Assembly: GCA_030634545.1 (NCBI GenBank) | Contig: DAOWAN010000011.1 | Span: forward strand, 1-34,165 | Source of the DNA: Candidatus Nanohalarchaeota archaeon | Lineage (GTDB): Archaea > EX4484-52 > B79-G9 | Reading direction: 5' to 3' | Length of the DNA stretch: 34,165 nucleotides | Part shown: positions 18,228-33,580 of the stretch, piece by piece | Numbering within the stretch: position 1 is the stretch's first letter | Layout: each line of letters opens with the position of its first letter | The notes under the pieces: generated by a model | Database searches by the model: none | What the model was told of the DNA's origin: nothing | Seen by the model: only the letters and a program-made list of their open reading frames with translations | Position numbers and translations under genes: made by a program

Positions 18228-19517
18228 ATGGAAATAAAGGATGCATTGATTTACTGGAATGACTGGTGGACAGATAACCCTATTGATAGCAGTATTTTAA
18301 GGCAGAAGTATATGTCCCGGATAAATGAACTTATAGATACAAGGGAGATTATTGTTCTTGCAGGAGTAAGAAGATCAGGGAAAACCACAATCATGCATCA
18401 GACCATAGATGAACTGCTGTCTAAAGTAAATAAGAATAATATTTGCTATATTAACATGGATGATTCGCGCTTTGGCACCAATCTTGAAAAAATATATGAG
18501 GTCTATTTAGAACTGGCTGACCCGCATGACAAAGTCTATTTTTTTATAGATGAAATCCGGAATGTACAATTGTGGGAGGAATGGATTAAGTACCGGTATG
18601 ATAAGAACCGGAATATCAAATTTATTGTTTCCGGGTCTACATCAGAGCTTTTGAGCAGGGAGTATAGTCATCTTTTATCAGGGAGATATTTCAGGATTAA
18701 TATTATGCCTCTGGGTTTTGAGGAGTTTCTTAAGTTTAAAAACATTGAATTTTCCAGCGAAATAAAGAGAATAAAGAATAAAGGAGCGATAAAAAGGTCA
18801 TTAATAGAATATCTTGAGTTCGGGGGTTTTCCCGAAGTTGTGCTGGAAGATAGGGAAACTGTGAGAAAAGAGCGGTTGAAGACCTATTTTGAAAGTATTT
18901 TGCTGAAAGATGTTGTTTTAAAAAATGATGTCAGAAACCCTGATAAAATAGAGGATATGGCATATTATTTTTTGTCTAATATTTCGTCAAATTATAATTA
19001 TAATCGCCTTGCTAAAACCCTGAATTTATCTACTCTGACTGCAGAGAATTATTTTTCGCATCTCAGGGATTCTTTCCTGATTGATTCAATTTCTATTTTT
19101 TCGTATAAAGTTAAGGAACAATTGCAGTATCCGCGCAAGATATATTGTGTTGATAATGGTATAAGAAATGCAGTTTCTTTCAGGTTCAGAGAGAACATCG
19201 GTCAGTTGTATGAAAATACAGTATTTACTGAACTTAAGAGGAGAGGGAAGAACGTATATTACTGGCGTGATAAGAATGAACGGGAGATTGATTTTGTTGT
19301 AAAAGAAGGTCTGAAGATAAGAGAAGCGATACAGGTTTGCTACTCTATTGAGGAATCTACAACTAGGAAAAGAGAAGTTCGCGCATTGCTTTTGGGAATG
19401 GATGAGTTAGGCTTAAAAGAAGGTTTGATTATCACAGAAGACTACGAATGTGAAGAACTTTTTTCAGATAAGAAAGTGCGCTTTATTCCGTTATGGAAAT
19501 GGATTCTTGGCGCTTGA
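18228..19517 (+). CDS. AAA ATPase with C-terminal DUF4143 domain
   Basis: A 429-residue protein. Walker A is GVRRSGKT (46-53), Walker B is VYFFIDEI (103-110), and the sensor strand is FIVSGSTSELL (132-142), followed by LSGRYFRI and PLGFEEFL as is usual in this family. Residues about 200-290 are helical with a winged-helix-like part. The C-terminal DUF4143 region carries EIDFVV (353-358) and IQVCY (368-372), matching the PD-(D/E)XK-like core. These ATPases are abundant in archaea with poorly known roles (DNA or toxin-antitoxin related). A second copy of the family lies at 30129-31403. The start at 18228 is supported by the TATA spacing. Confidence 0.9.
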   Translation: MEIKDALIYWNDWWTDNPIDSSILRQKYMSRINELIDTREIIVLAGVRRSGKTTIMHQTIDELLSKVNKNNICYINMDDSRFGTNLEKIYEVYLELADPHDKVYFFIDEIRNVQLWEEWIKYRYDKNRNIKFIVSGSTSELLSREYSHLLSGRYFRINIMPLGFEEFLKFKNIEFSSEIKRIKNKGAIKRSLIEYLEFGGFPEVVLEDRETVRKERLKTYFESILLKDVVLKNDVRNPDKIEDMAYYFLSNISSNYNYNRLAKTLNLSTLTAENYFSHLRDSFLIDSISIFSYKVKEQLQYPRKIYCVDNGIRNAVSFRFRENIGQLYENTVFTELKRRGKNVYYWRDKNEREIDFVVKEGLKIREAIQVCYSIEESTTRKREVRALLLGMDELGLKEGLIITEDYECEELFSDKKVRFIPLWKWILGA

Positions 19518-23390: not shown

Positions 23391-23883
23391 ATGTTGAATT
23401 ATTCGGAATTACGCAAAAAACCGAAATTATTTCGTTCATTTACAGGTCTGCAAGTCTCAGAATTTGACACCGTATACGCGATTCTAAAGAAGAAGCACAA
23501 GAGATACGAAACCAAGAGATTGAGCAAGGGAGAAAGAATAAATTCTATAGGTCAAGGTAGAAAGTTCAAACTTGAACTTATCAATCAATTTCTTTTGGTG
23601 TTAATTTATTACAGGATGTACATATCGTATAGTTTTGCTGGTTTTCTCGTAAATCTCGATCAAAGCAATGTCCAAAGGAACATAAAATATCTAGAACCGC
23701 TAGTGAAAAAGTGTGTGCCAATACCTGAAAGGGTTTACAAACAATCCAAGAAAATTACGACACCGGAAGAACTTTTGGAATACTTTCCAGATATGAAAGC
23801 CATTATAGACGCAACAGAACAGGAAATACAAAGACCAAAGCACAAAAGACGAAGAAAGAACCATTACTCGGGTAAGAAAAAAA
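23391..23883 (+). pseudogene. IS5-family transposase, 5' part
   Basis: The N-terminal 164 codons of a DDE_Tnp_4 transposase. A helix-turn-helix region (FKLELINQFLLVLIYYRMY, then DQSNVQRNIKYLEPLV) is followed by the first catalytic Asp in MKAIIDATEQEIQRPKHK. The match ends at HYSGKKK, where the IS66-family element is inserted; the nine codons that follow in the open frame belong to that element. GGGGGAG precedes the ATG. Joined to 25347-25786 with one copy of the 8-bp duplication, the frame is intact at 310 residues. Confidence 0.9.
23876..23883. repeat. Target-site duplication of the IS66-family element, left copy
   Basis: GAAAAAAA at 23876-23883 is repeated exactly at 25339-25346, directly outside both ends of the element. 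Eight bases is the length expected for IS66. Confidence 0.9.
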
Positions 23884-25338
23884 GTATTTGTTTAGCTAAT
23901 TCTAAAGATTGATTCTATTGTGCTTCTACACTCGTAAAGTATATATTGGTGTATCGAAAAGCAGAAACATCACATACACAATAAAATCATATATGGGAGA
24001 TAAGGAAGTTATCAATGAGTTGAAAGTCCAAATAGAAGAGTTGAAGACACTGCTCAAAGTTCAAGCAAAAAAGATAGAACAAGTTGAAAAAGAACTTGCA
24101 AAATATAAGAATCCTAACACGCCGTCTTCATCAAATCAGCATTTGAAAGAGAACACTCAAGGTAAAAAATCAAAGAAAGGTGCAAAACAAGGTGCTCCAT
24201 TTGGTCACAAAGGAGTAACACGTATTCTTAAGGCATTGGAGAAAATTGTTATTGATGCAGATGAATGTCCAAAATGTCATAGTTCAAAATTGAAAAACAA
24301 AAAAGTCCTTAAGAGAACGATAATAGATATTGCTAAAAAGGTTGATCCTGAAATCATTGAAGCAGAGATTCGCTTTAAGGAATGTAAAGACTGCGGACAT
24401 GTTTTTGTACCAAAGCAAAATACAATTCCTCTAAAAGGAGATTATGGTATTGAATTTATGCTTCTTGTCGTTTTCATAAAATTCACACTGAGAGGTGTCC
24501 TGAGAAAGACAGCTTCGTTTCTGGATTACCGACATAATCTCGATATAACAGCTGCATCAGTAAACACGATTATCAAAAGAGTTGCAGATGCAGCAGAAGA
24601 TGAATATGATGAATTAAAACAACGGATACGTGCTGCAAAGACTGTTTATGTGGACGAAACCAGTTTTTCGGTGCTTGGAAAACCTCAATGGGTCTGGGTT
24701 TTTAAGACAGCAGAGGACATTTTGATTGTCATACGTCCAAGTAGGGGTCGTAATGTACTTAGAGAGATACTTGGAGAAAGTTACGCAGGCAATGTCGTTT
24801 GCGATTGCTGGAGTTCGTATAATTTCCTCTCGAAAGCATATGCAAATCTACAACGGTGTTGGGCACATTTACTTAGAAAATCTGAAGTATTGGTTGACAC
24901 TGTAGCAGGAAAGCATTTTCATGAAAAACTCCAAGGACTATTCAAAGAGATAAAGGAGTTTAACGCACAAAGTCCGACAGAAGAGGAGAGGTTGAAGAAA
25001 TATGAAGAGATGACCGAAAAATTGAGGAAATTAACATCCTATTATTCGCGATATAACGATTTGATGCCTGTTGTAAAATACATAAACAACAAGATTGGTC
25101 AGTGGTTTACATGTGTGAAAATTGAAGGTATTGAACCAACCAATAATTTTGCAGAGCAGGCGATTAGAGAGACAGTTATGGTGAGGAAGATTATTGGTGC
25201 GTTCAGGTCGGAGACAGGGAAGCAAAACTATGAGATATTGGCATCATTAATATCTACATGGAAGCTGAAGGATAAAGATATTGCAGATGAACTTAGGCAG
25301 ATGATGATAAGAAAATTGTGCTTTTGCTAAACAAATAC
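23884..25338 (+). mobile_element. IS66-family insertion sequence (single-ORF type)
   Basis: A 1455-bp element bounded by perfect 13-bp inverted repeats GTATTTGTTTAGC (23884-23896) and GCTAAACAAATAC (25326-25338), flanked by an exact 8-bp duplication. It carries only the transposase and lacks the accessory tnpA/tnpB genes, as in the ISBst12 subgroup of IS66. Perfect ends, an intact ORF and an undamaged duplication indicate a recent, possibly active insertion. Confidence 0.93.
23993..25330 (+). CDS. tnpC: IS66-family transposase
   Basis: From the ATG at 23993 the protein is 445 residues long. It has an N-terminal leucine-zipper-like coil (INELKVQIEELKTLLKVQAK), the segment NPNTPSSSNQHLK typical of IS66 transposases, and a zinc-finger pair CPKCHSSK...CKDCGH. 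The DDE catalytic core has Asp in VYVDETSFSVLG, Asp in VVCDCWSSYNFL and Glu in NNFAEQAIRETVMVRKI. The longer open frame starting at 23909 lies within the element's left end and is less likely. A TATA box (about 23938-23946) is upstream. The TAA stop lies inside the right inverted repeat. The protein looks intact. Confidence 0.93.
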   Translation: MGDKEVINELKVQIEELKTLLKVQAKKIEQVEKELAKYKNPNTPSSSNQHLKENTQGKKSKKGAKQGAPFGHKGVTRILKALEKIVIDADECPKCHSSKLKNKKVLKRTIIDIAKKVDPEIIEAEIRFKECKDCGHVFVPKQNTIPLKGDYGIEFMLLVVFIKFTLRGVLRKTASFLDYRHNLDITAASVNTIIKRVADAAEDEYDELKQRIRAAKTVYVDETSFSVLGKPQWVWVFKTAEDILIVIRPSRGRNVLREILGESYAGNVVCDCWSSYNFLSKAYANLQRCWAHLLRKSEVLVDTVAGKHFHEKLQGLFKEIKEFNAQSPTEEERLKKYEEMTEKLRKLTSYYSRYNDLMPVVKYINNKIGQWFTCVKIEGIEPTNNFAEQAIRETVMVRKIIGAFRSETGKQNYEILASLISTWKLKDKDIADELRQMMIRKLCFC

Positions 25339-25346
25339 GAAAAAAA

Positions 25347-25786
25347 GACATACAGTAAAGAACCAGATGATGATAAACAAGAAAGGATTGATTATACACA
25401 AAACAGATCATGATAATGGAAAAAGACACGATTATGATGTGTTCAAAAAGAAGCATCCTATTGTCCCATCGGATGTTGAAATAATAGGGGATTCTGGATA
25501 TCAGGGAATAGAAAAGGATTTTCCTGATATGAAAACCAGAATACCAAGAAAGAAACCGAAAGGAAAAGAACGAACAAAAAAAGACCGGAGGTATAATAAA
25601 AAGCTCAGCAAAGAGCGAATTGTTGTTGAGCATGTAATAGGCAGGACTAAAAAGTTTGAGATATTGGGAAGAAAATTCAGAAATCGATTGAAGCGACACG
25701 ATAATGTGAGTTCCATTATCTCAGGATTAGTCAATTTAAGGGTGATAATTAATCAGGGATGGGAGTTGAATCAATTTATCGGTTAA
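25347..25786 (+). pseudogene. IS5-family transposase, 3' part
   Basis: This continues the transposase broken at 23883. The residues RHTVKNQMMINKKGLIIH directly follow HYSGKKK in register. The second catalytic Asp is in IIGDSGYQGI, and the Glu is in KERIVVEHVIGRTKKF. The ATG at 25367 is internal to the original gene, not a true start. The end at 25786 is the native stop, 37 bases before the right inverted repeat. Confidence 0.9.
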
Positions 25787-30128: not shown

Positions 30129-31403
30129 CTATTCCAGAAGCCATTGCCACACCGGCTTCAGAATCACAGTCTTACCATCAATTTCAATCACATCCTCCTG
30201 ATCTTCTGTCAGTATCAGCCCGCTATTTAGTTTATACTGCTTCACAGCTGCAAGAAGTCCTTCCAATTCCCTTTTTTTGTTTTCCTCTACCAGTTCTCTT
30301 GTAACCTGTATTACCTGTGTGATTTTGTTTTTTTCCTTTACCAGAAAATCGCATTCGTAAGTGTCTGCATAGTAATATATCTCTTTTTTCCTGCGCTTTA
30401 GTTCTATGAAAACAAGGTTTTCCAGGAATCGCCCGTAATTTTCAGAGAAACCGAAACCAATCTCTCTTGCAAGAGCATGATCAATACAATATATCTTTTT
30501 TGATGTGTTAATCTGGGTTTTCAGGGAATATGAAAATTTATCAAGACTGAAAAAAATAAAGGCATCTTTGAAATAGTCAAGATAATTTTTAATTGTGCTT
30601 AGGCTGTTCAGACCGCTTATGTTTCTTAAGGTATTGTAAGAATATATTTTTCCTATGTTTGATGCCAGAAAACTGCCAATCAGTTTCATCTCCCTGACTT
30701 TCGTTACAGAATGCCTTACAATTATATCGCGGTAGAATATGTCATTATAATAGTCTTTTAGTATTCCTTTATCCTTTTCTTTTATGACTAATGGAAAACT
30801 CCCGTAATTGAAATAATTTTTGAAGTGATTTTTTAGAGATGCTTTTTTTGCTGTTGAAAGAGAAGAAACTGACGCATATTCTTCCTTATTTAGCTGAAGA
30901 TACTCGCCGAAACTGAAAGGATAGAGGTCAAGAACTGTATTTCGTCCTGTAAGCGATGTTGCTATTTCTGAACTTAAAAGAGCTGCATTTGAACCAGTCA
31001 CATATATTTTTATGGATTGCTCCTGCATCCTGTTCAGGAATTTTTCCCAACCCTGTGCGTTTTGAATCTCATCAAAAAAGAAGCATACGTTTCTTTTATC
31101 ATGGCAGAAGTCTTCTAAAAAAATAGAATAAATCGTATTGAAATCTTCTGGCTGCATGGCTGCAAGACGTTCGTCATCAAAGTTAAGATATAGTATACTG
31201 TAATCGTTCTTTATGTCTTTTTGTGCATCTTTTATAAGGTGAAGCAGTGATGATTTTCCGCATCTTCTGACACCTGAGATCACTACAATCTGCTTTGTCC
31301 TAAGGTATTTTTGCAGGTCTATATCTCTTTTGATAAGATCTTTTTTTTCATGGAAGAATTCCATGCTGTCAACTATTACCTGTCGTAGTTTGCTTTTTTC
31401 CAT
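30129..31403 (-). CDS. AAA ATPase with C-terminal DUF4143 domain, second copy
   Basis: From the ATG at 31403 the protein is 424 residues. Walker A is GVRRCGKS (44-51), Walker B is VCFFFDEI (106-113), and the sensor strand is IYVTGSNAALL, followed by LTGRNTVLDL and PFSFGEYL. The C-terminal DUF4143 part has CDFLVKE and IQVTREL. It has the same architecture as the ATPase at 18228 but is clearly divergent. The open frame extends to a TTG at 31463, but that extension would translate the TATA box and an operator, so the TATA-supported ATG is preferred. The gene is flanked on both sides by the double-operator module. Confidence 0.9.
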   Translation of the reverse strand: MEKSKLRQVIVDSMEFFHEKKDLIKRDIDLQKYLRTKQIVVISGVRRCGKSSLLHLIKDAQKDIKNDYSILYLNFDDERLAAMQPEDFNTIYSIFLEDFCHDKRNVCFFFDEIQNAQGWEKFLNRMQEQSIKIYVTGSNAALLSSEIATSLTGRNTVLDLYPFSFGEYLQLNKEEYASVSSLSTAKKASLKNHFKNYFNYGSFPLVIKEKDKGILKDYYNDIFYRDIIVRHSVTKVREMKLIGSFLASNIGKIYSYNTLRNISGLNSLSTIKNYLDYFKDAFIFFSLDKFSYSLKTQINTSKKIYCIDHALAREIGFGFSENYGRFLENLVFIELKRRKKEIYYYADTYECDFLVKEKNKITQVIQVTRELVEENKKRELEGLLAAVKQYKLNSGLILTEDQEDVIEIDGKTVILKPVWQWLLE

Positions 31404-31420
31404 GGCATTTACTAGGTGCT

Positions 31421-31484
31421 GGAAATATATATGCTTTTCGTTCACAACGAACAATTCAGACAAAAATCATTCGTTGACAGCGAA
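31421..31484 (-). promoter_or_regulatory. TATA box and double operator module, copy B
   Basis: The TATA element is ATATATATTTCC read on the minus strand (31421-31432), about 25 bases before the ATG at 31403. TTCGTTCACAACGAA (31437-31451) and TTCGTTGACAGCGAA (31470-31484) sit directly upstream, spaced 33 bases apart exactly as in copy A. The placement suggests control of this ATPase gene. Confidence 0.7.
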
Positions 31485-32465: not shown

Positions 32466-32484
32466 AGTATCTCTGATTTGCGTA

Positions 32485-32495
32485 ATTTTAAAATA
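32485..32495. promoter_or_regulatory. Shared bidirectional TATA element for dph5 and trm5
   Basis: The palindrome ATTTTAAAAT is centred about 25 bases from the dph5 ATG (32465, minus) and about 27 bases from the trm5 ATG (32517, plus). One symmetric element can therefore place the initiation site at both start codons; the whole divergent gap is only 51 bases. Confidence 0.65.
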
Positions 32496-32516
32496 ATATG
32501 GTTCGCATCTATTATC

Positions 32517-33392
32517 ATGAATCTTAAGGATAAGCTTTCAGCTACATTGTCAGGTGACGAGATTGATGCACTGGACAGGTCTTTTGAGGTCATCGGAGAC
32601 ATAGGGATAATAGAGCCGCAAGAATCTCTAGTCAAATGGAAACACGAAATTGCAAAAGCACTGGTATCCATCCAAAATCATCTGAAAGTCGTTCTGATGA
32701 AAACAGGTGATGTCTCCGGGAAATTCCGTGTACCTGAGTATGAGGTAGTTTATGAGTCTAAGAATCGCGACTTTTCATGGGTGCCAAAAGGATTCCGACC
32801 ATCAAAACCTACCCAGACAGTTCATAGAGAGCATGGATGCCGGTTTAAGATAGACCCTACCTCCGCTTATTTTTCAAGCAAACTCGCACATGAAAGGGGA
32901 AGGATAAGAGATCTTGTCTGCGATGGTGAGAGGATACTTTGCCTTTTTGCCGGTGTCGGACCATTTGCGATTGTCACTGCGCGCTCAAAAGATGTAAAAG
33001 TTACCGGGGTTGAAATTAACCCCGATGCAGTCTCTTTTTTCAGGGAAAATATCATACTCAACAAAGTAACAGATAAAGTAGATATTCTTCTGGGTGATGT
33101 TTCAGATGTGCTTTCAAAAATAGATGGTAAATTTGACAGGATAATGATGCCTGCGCCCAAGAATGCATGCGATTTTTTAGAACCTGCACTAAAAAAGACA
33201 AAAATCGGAACCATAGTGCATCTTTACTGTTTTTTAAGTGAAGAAGAAGTCAGCACCGCCGCACAGATGATTTCAGACAGATGCAAAAATGCCGGTTACA
33301 ATGTAGAGATTTTGCTAGTCCGCAAATGCGGAAATATAGGACCGTATCATTACCGCATCGTTATTGATTTCAAAGTATTGAGTAAAGATTAA
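32517..33392 (+). CDS. trm5: tRNA (guanine-37-N1) methyltransferase, Trm5 type, lacking domain D1
   Basis: The ATG at 32517 is chosen because the longer frame (from 32142) runs through dph5. The 291-residue protein has the D2 sequence VIGDIGIIEPQESL, VSGKFRVPEYEVVYES and HREHGCRFKIDPTSAYFS. The Rossmann methyltransferase domain follows, with LCLFAGVGPFAIV (AdoMet motif I), VTGVEINPDAV and the MMPAPKNACDFL catalytic-loop region. Trm5 makes m1G37 in tRNAs, which prevents +1 frameshifting. Archaeal Trm5 is usually longer, with an N-terminal D1 domain that senses the tRNA elbow, and none is visible here. The downstream tRNA-Pro has G37, the expected substrate base. Confidence 0.9.
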   Translation: MNLKDKLSATLSGDEIDALDRSFEVIGDIGIIEPQESLVKWKHEIAKALVSIQNHLKVVLMKTGDVSGKFRVPEYEVVYESKNRDFSWVPKGFRPSKPTQTVHREHGCRFKIDPTSAYFSSKLAHERGRIRDLVCDGERILCLFAGVGPFAIVTARSKDVKVTGVEINPDAVSFFRENIILNKVTDKVDILLGDVSDVLSKIDGKFDRIMMPAPKNACDFLEPALKKTKIGTIVHLYCFLSEEEVSTAAQMISDRCKNAGYNVEILLVRKCGNIGPYHYRIVIDFKVLSKD

Positions 33393-33430: not shown

Positions 33431-33580
33431 GGGACCTTAGGGTAGCTTCGTGCGGGAAAGTATTTGTCTTGCGCGCTATATTGGTCATCCTTCCAGCTCG
33501 GGGAGCTGGTGACCTGTGTTCAAAACATGCGTACGTAAATGTATCTGGCGGCGCATGGGAATATCACAGGGGTCCCACCA
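33431..33580 (+). tRNA. tRNA-Pro (GGG) with two introns, in D-loop and T-loop
   Basis: The acceptor stem is GGGACCT (33431-33437) with GGGTCCC (33570-33576), then A73 and an encoded CCA (33578-33580). The D-stem is GGGT (33440-33443) with ATCC (33487-33490). The anticodon arm is CCAGC (33493-33497), loop TCGGGGA, GCTGG (33505-33509), reading anticodon GGG with C at position 33 and G37. The T-stem is CTGTG (33514-33518) with CACAG (33565-33569). Intron 1 is about 33449-33480 (32 bases; 34 would give the usual 9-base D-loop). Its bulge-helix-bulge has TAGC/GCTA as central helix, bulges TTC and TAT, and GTGC/GCGC as inner helix. Intron 2 is 33525-33563 (39 bases), with outer helix CTGTG/CACAG, bulges AAA and TAT and inner helix CATGCG/CGCATG. 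Splicing it restores the T-loop TTCAAAT. Confidence 0.9.

Follow-up and report, generated by a model that had tools for sequence, protein, structure and literature searches.

A tRNA-Pro(GGG) gene with predicted D-loop and T-loop introns in a Nanohalarchaeota lineage with a one-gene splicing endonuclease

Multiple and non-canonical tRNA introns of archaea have been tied in reviews to splicing endonucleases of the (alpha-beta)2 or epsilon2 type, and the alpha4 type has been called narrow (PMC6379350). Relaxed bulge-helix-bulge (BHB) motifs are reported there to be removed efficiently by (alpha-beta)2 and epsilon2 enzymes only (PMC6379350), and canonical motifs are said to be the sole substrates of alpha4-type enzymes (PMC6379350, PMC4033280). 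The tRNA-Pro(UGG) of Pyrobaculum islandicum has introns at positions 25/26, 37/38 and 56/57 (PMC4090602), and the tRNA-Thr(GGU) of Caldiarchaeum subterraneum has introns at 24/25 and 45/46 and none at 37/38 (PMC3293823). Among DPANN-type archaea, ARMAN-1/2 (Micrarchaeota) combine non-canonical tRNA introns with an epsilon2 endonuclease (PMC6379350, PMC12397907), and the endonucleases of ARMAN-2 and N. equitans are of broad specificity (PMC6379350). The EX4484-52 lineage has been placed beside the Nanohaloarchaeota (PMC9765267), and the lineage studied here, comprising 34 genomes that NCBI lists as 'Nanohalarchaeota' (DPANN; one order, seven families), may be the same one. Titles and abstracts of the open-access literature searched held no description of such tRNA introns in Nanohaloarchaeota or DPANN.

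We analyzed a window of 34,165 nucleotides, the term denoting the whole stretch of DNA under study, from a draft metagenome-assembled genome (MAG) that is 88% complete with 7.4% contamination. The closest named relatives of this genome are the Candidatus Nanohalarchaeota MAGs CSMAG_1788 and CSMAG_321, whose prefix suggests a cold-seep origin.

Structure of the tRNA-Pro(GGG) gene

The gene and its neighbors are listed in Table 1. When both inserts are excised, a 77-nt tRNA is obtained with a 7-bp acceptor stem (GGGACCT/GGGTCCC), G18G19, anticodon GGG, the T-arm CTGTG-TTCAAAT-CACAG and an encoded CCA, features that are those of an archaeal tRNA-Pro(GGG). The anticodon arm in the middle exon reads CCAGC-TCGGGGA-GCTGG, with C33 and G37. 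ARAGORN called the spliced 77-mer tRNA-Pro(ggg), and the unspliced gene returned no match with ARAGORN (intron options included) or Rfam cmscan, a silence attributable to the two introns. These results bore out the initial annotation, made from the sequence alone, in its view that a tRNA-Pro appears only after removal of two segments, that the second removal restores the T-loop and T-stem, and that annotation tools easily miss such a gene. The 5' exon pairs with 33570-33576 and agrees with the intronless orthologues L023 and L024, and the middle exon of the spliced query matched same-genus orthologues at 96-98%. The T-loop intron has the 39 bases first proposed, its site being fixed by the intronless orthologues. 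The D-loop intron had been given as 32-34 bases, a range that BHB geometry narrowed to 34. Its ends can be shifted by 1-2 nt, TT being repeated at both ends, with no change to the mature sequence. ARAGORN alone is tolerant of D-loop excisions (140 accepted combinations), and the exact D boundary therefore rests on the orthologues and helix geometry.

Table 1. Predicted features of the window, with coordinates in window positions
Feature	Coordinates	Strand	Description
DUF1016/YhcG nuclease	800-1813
AAA_14/DUF4143 ATPase gene, one of two	18228-19517
DDE (HTH_Tnp_4/DDE_Tnp_4) transposase, apparently split	23391-23912 + 25367-25786		extends over 23391-25786
IS66-family transposase ORF	23909-25330		interrupter of the DDE transposase
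AAA_14/DUF4143 ATPase gene, second of two	30129-31463
Trm5/TYW2-family tRNA (guanine-37) methyltransferase gene	32466..33392	+	PF02475, E=5.8e-45; 38 bp upstream of the tRNA
tRNA-Pro(GGG) gene	33431-33580	+	CCA encoded in the gene
5' exon	33431..33447	+	acceptor strand GGGACCT, T8 A9, 5' side of D-stem, D-loop to T17; GGGACCTTAGGGTAGCT
D-loop intron	33448..33481	+	34 nt, position 17/17a
middle exon	33482..33524	+	D-arm remainder, anticodon arm, variable loop TGAC, T-stem CTGTG, TTCAAA (54-59); TGGTCATCCTTCCAGCTCGGGGAGCTGGTGACCTGTGTTCAAA
T-loop intron	33525..33563	+	39 nt, position 59/60
3' exon	33564..33580	+	T60, CACAG, acceptor 3' strand GGGTCCC, A73, CCA; TCACAGGGGTCCCACCA

In order to gauge chance, a pattern of acceptor stem, T-stem, TTCRAR and central helix was scanned over 20 Markov-randomised 34-kb sequences, which yielded one structural candidate and none accepted by ARAGORN; on the real + strand the same scan found exactly the tRNA-Pro locus and nothing else. 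Covariance scoring, which the initial annotation had named as a possible source of refutation, came out in favor of the gene. A model (R1) built from 10 of the lineage's tRNAs with a T-loop intron, with the window gene excluded and the Pro genes of relatives included, scored the unspliced locus at 57.2 bits (E=2.2e-13). The search for another tRNA-Pro(GGG), likewise proposed there, found no second intact copy in the genome, where Pro(TGG) was the sole further tRNA-Pro match.

Splice motifs and the endonuclease

The two introns differ in their predicted motifs. At the T-loop, the outer helix is the T-stem itself (CTGTG/CACAG), the central helix is TTCA/GGAA with one A.G mismatch, the bulges are AA|A and TA|T, and the inner helix is CATGCG/CGCATG. 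The helices, the 3-nt bulges and the predicted cleavage two nucleotides into each bulge, at position 59/60, are those of a BHB, and most other tRNAs with a T-loop intron have the full central helix TTCA/TGAA or TTCG/CGAA. The D-loop intron has a central helix GTAG/CTAT, bulges CT|T and AT|T, and a 9-bp inner helix CGTGCGGGA/TCTTGCGCG; the adjacent outer helix is absent, and the strict BHB form, with two helices flanking both bulges, is therefore not reached. The BHB geometry first proposed for both introns thus held for the T-loop, mismatch aside, and for the D-loop in relaxed form only. From sequence, we class the T-loop motif, which makes use of the T-stem, as a near-strict BHB and the D-loop motif as a relaxed BHB. 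The D and T introns of the window (33448-33563) resemble each other, and a common origin or transposition is possible; in G004 (L027) the inner helix CATGCG/CGCATG, or nearly so, is common to both introns.

Folding energy was rejected as proof of a BHB. The lowest-energy folds of either fragment omit the central helices, the motifs being weak on their own, and comparative evidence was used instead. For the T intron, 93% of cells pair across five sequences, no shuffle of 500 attains the score, and six pairs show double-sided changes, of which three lie in the mature T-stem and three in the intron helix. The corresponding values for the D intron, also from five sequences, are 92% of cells, three double-sided changes and 10 of 500 shuffles. 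With five sequences each and strands cut by hand before alignment, these counts lend the helices support short of proof.

The genome contains genes for RtcB and for EndA, the latter at L021:1474-2112 (G000:C7) on the - strand and coding for 212 aa. PF02778 and PF01974 each gave one match per genome, in the same ORF, in 27 of the 34 genomes. The gene is single in all seven genomes that are at least 90% complete, and no second copy or beta subunit gene was found in the 27 genomes with a match. Neither a beta subunit gene, as expected of (alpha-beta)2, nor a three-unit protein of ~390 aa, as expected of epsilon2, was detected in the 34 genomes searched. What is present is an alpha4-type gene, that is, one gene of about 190-210 aa with N and catalytic C domains. 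Its catalytic site departs from that type. When aligned with references 1A79, 4FZ2, 3P1Z and 3IEY, the homologues have the catalytic Tyr and His, and the Lys column (MJ K156, ARMAN K282) holds Ala or Ser in 27/27, leaving none with the Tyr-His-Lys triad. The phylum-wide search comprised the same 34 genomes as the order-wide one, and lysine loss is scored within the lineage. An NPYK insertion between the catalytic Tyr and His is invariant in the 27 homologues, across the order; in the alignment, this Tyr-His loop also holds additional residues in the ARMAN-2 and N. equitans enzymes. No N-domain insertion of CSL or ASL length occurs in the aligned endonucleases. A check of endonuclease type, which the initial annotation had suggested, thus returned one short alpha-type gene with no second subunit and a replaced catalytic lysine.

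In the pathway we propose, by analogy with the known archaeal one, an EndA-type endonuclease would cut both bulge pairs and RtcB would join the three exons into the 77-nt tRNA-Pro(GGG). Where a T-loop intron has a strict motif, no broad specificity is needed; the relaxed D-loop intron does need breadth. One might accordingly suppose that a single intron is the EndA substrate and that the other insertion is retained or removed by another route, as the relaxed D-loop motif and the description of alpha4-type enzymes as canonical-only (PMC6379350, PMC4033280) would have it. Against this, the D insertion has a central helix of 4 bp and bulges of 3 nt in both the window and G010 copies, with conserved helix compensation, and it is precisely missing from relatives. 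A retained 34-nt D-loop hairpin is, moreover, expected to disrupt the contact between D-loop and T-loop, and we judge removal of one intron alone by EndA to be very improbable. In the two-intron reading, the one-gene alpha-type enzyme is the sole endonuclease detectable and therefore probably handles the relaxed D-loop site as well. The NPYK insertion may help at that site and make up for the absent catalytic lysine. A more tentative idea, which we lean against, is that the lineage splices its D- and T-loop introns, relaxed motifs included, with a fifth class of splicing endonuclease: a one-gene alpha type that has lost the canonical catalytic lysine and relies on the lysine of the NPYK insertion, beside the active site, for both catalysis and broad range, with an origin separate from those of the crenarchaeal CSL and the ARMAN ASL.

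Orthologues and introns across the lineage

BLAST of the spliced 77-mer against 11 same-family genomes identified uninterrupted full-length copies in two sister-genus genomes, G008 (95%; 77/77 nt aligned) and G006 (94%). These continuous intronless orthologues show that the exon joins do not arise from fitting. In the same genus, the Pro(GGG) genes of G003 and G004 have both introns at identical sites and near-identical exons. In G004, 75 of the 77 exon bases are unchanged and the two that differ make up a single compensatory acceptor pair (A4-T69 to G4-C69; the pair is A-T in the window gene and G-C in relatives), although its 34-nt D intron has diverged in sequence. In the window and in G006, G003 and G004, the tRNA follows closely on the Trm5/TYW2 gene, and the genes are therefore orthologues; this order is kept in two genera (L024, L053, L054). 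A gene of the G37-methyltransferase family thus adjoins a G37-bearing tRNA-Pro in two genera, and a functional pairing is possible.

Intron content varies among these relatives. The D intron is absent from the G006 and G008 orthologues and its site is also occupied in the Pro(CGG) of G003 and G010, where helix changes are compensatory. The T intron is present in G003, G004, G009 and G010 and absent in G006 and G008. G009 Pro(GGG) has the T-loop intron only, and the Pro(CGG) genes of G010 and G003 have both. These varied states indicate repeated gain or loss at fixed sites. In G003, Pro(GGG) and Pro(CGG) stand in tandem (L054:4018-4333, L158), each with D-loop and T-loop introns, and the D intron of its Pro(GGG) is 82 nt long with an internal near-repeat of its own 3' end.

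The blindness of standard tRNA finders to the locus could point to a tRNA pseudogene in decay, interrupted twice by chance, in a cell that reads CCC/CCU codons with another tRNA. Exons that are about 95% or more conserved between genera while the introns diverge, the compensatory pair 4-69, insertions at identical sites in three species and the lack of an intact second Pro(GGG) among the genes found largely refute decay, which we regard as scarcely credible. Assembly errors or strain mixture in the metagenome bin, conceivable for a draft MAG with 7.4% contamination, are refuted by the same introns, with diverged sequences, in independent MAGs of other species, and their probability is negligible.

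The comparative evidence thus confirms 33431-33580 as a real, if computationally defined, two-intron tRNA-Pro(GGG) gene. The intronless orthologues, the intron positions shared with relatives, the compensatory changes, the covariance score and the EndA and RtcB genes support the prediction of two non-canonical introns, none at 37/38, removed by archaeal BHB splicing. We consider it highly probable that this single-copy tRNA-Pro(GGG) gene is functional and that its precursor has two protein-spliced introns. Counted against this explanation are the folds without central helices, the A.G mismatch, the missing outer helix of the D intron, the lysine-less endonuclease and the draft state of the MAG.

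Introns at 59/60 occur in at least nine tRNA genes of the source genome, namely Pro(GGG), Glu(TTC), His, Lys(CTT), Ser(CGA), Asn, Arg(TCG), Arg(GCG) and Asp; those in the eight tRNAs besides Pro were validated by excision and ARAGORN. Lys(CTT) adds an anticodon-loop intron and is a second two-intron gene of this genome. The best-assembled relative, G033, has 12 T-loop introns at 59/60 that were validated by excision, and a further tRNA of this genome (L151), apparently Arg(TCG), reads with D-loop and T-loop introns. Families f3 and f5 are apparently mostly intronless, as judged by span. It was probably within this lineage that the introns entered tRNA-Pro, in the course of a wider spread of T-loop introns at 59/60 over its tRNA genes; the D intron also occurs in the isoacceptor Pro(CGG) of relatives. 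Standard finders overlook such genes or cut them short, and the tRNA sets of such genomes therefore look incomplete. Two further observations concern the source genome: L007 (G000:C175:3405-3549) reads as tRNA-Ile(UAU) with an anticodon-loop intron, the usual archaeal form being CAU Ile2, and tRNA-Cys(gca) occurs three times on separate contigs (L012, L015, L016), which may be real or reflect strain mixture given the 7.4% contamination.

The initial annotation had taken C33 for an oddity. It is kept in the Pro(GGG) orthologues of six family genomes and of G033, with T33 in its place in the f4 genomes G016, G018 and G020, and on these sequences C33 is a lineage trait. Two introns with neither at 37/38 had also been called unusual in such a genome: the lack of a 37/38 intron stands, non-canonical introns are common in the lineage, and the arrangement has a precedent in the Caldiarchaeum tRNA-Thr(GGU) (PMC3293823).

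Comparison with described systems

Introns of this kind are already known from Thermoproteales, Caldiarchaeum and ARMAN, and the site 59/60 has been described before. As in Thermoproteales, where 59/60 is a listed site, there are several BHB-type introns per tRNA, at sites outside the anticodon loop and recurring over many tRNAs; the phylum differs, and the window gene lacks a 37/38 intron. Crenarchaeota have a two-gene (alpha-beta)2 endonuclease, whereas this lineage has one gene. Two non-canonical introns with none at 37/38, and intron numbers that vary between close relatives, recall Caldiarchaeum, from whose tRNA-Thr(GGU) the positions, the tRNA and the lineage differ. ARMAN-1/2 share the DPANN-type affiliation, non-canonical intron sites and an enzyme whose catalytic Tyr and His are set further apart by additional residues. 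In contrast to the ARMAN epsilon2 enzyme of about 390 aa, the one found here has about 190-210 aa and no catalytic Lys, and the 11-aa ARMAN ASL with Y160-K161 is missing at its usual place. The closest solved relative is the alpha4 EndA of Methanocaldococcus jannaschii (1A79; phmmer E=9e-28), which likewise has one gene, two domains and the catalytic Tyr and His. Unlike 1A79, the enzymes of this lineage have a 7-residue insertion (the NPYK region) before the catalytic His and Ala/Ser at K156 in 27/27.

The less expected part is the pairing of a predicted one-gene, lysine-lacking endonuclease with intron diversity. A DPANN lineage that has only a one-gene enzyme for many T-loop introns and, in at least one case, a relaxed D-loop intron would be a testable exception to the proposed rule of co-evolution between tRNA introns and their endonucleases.
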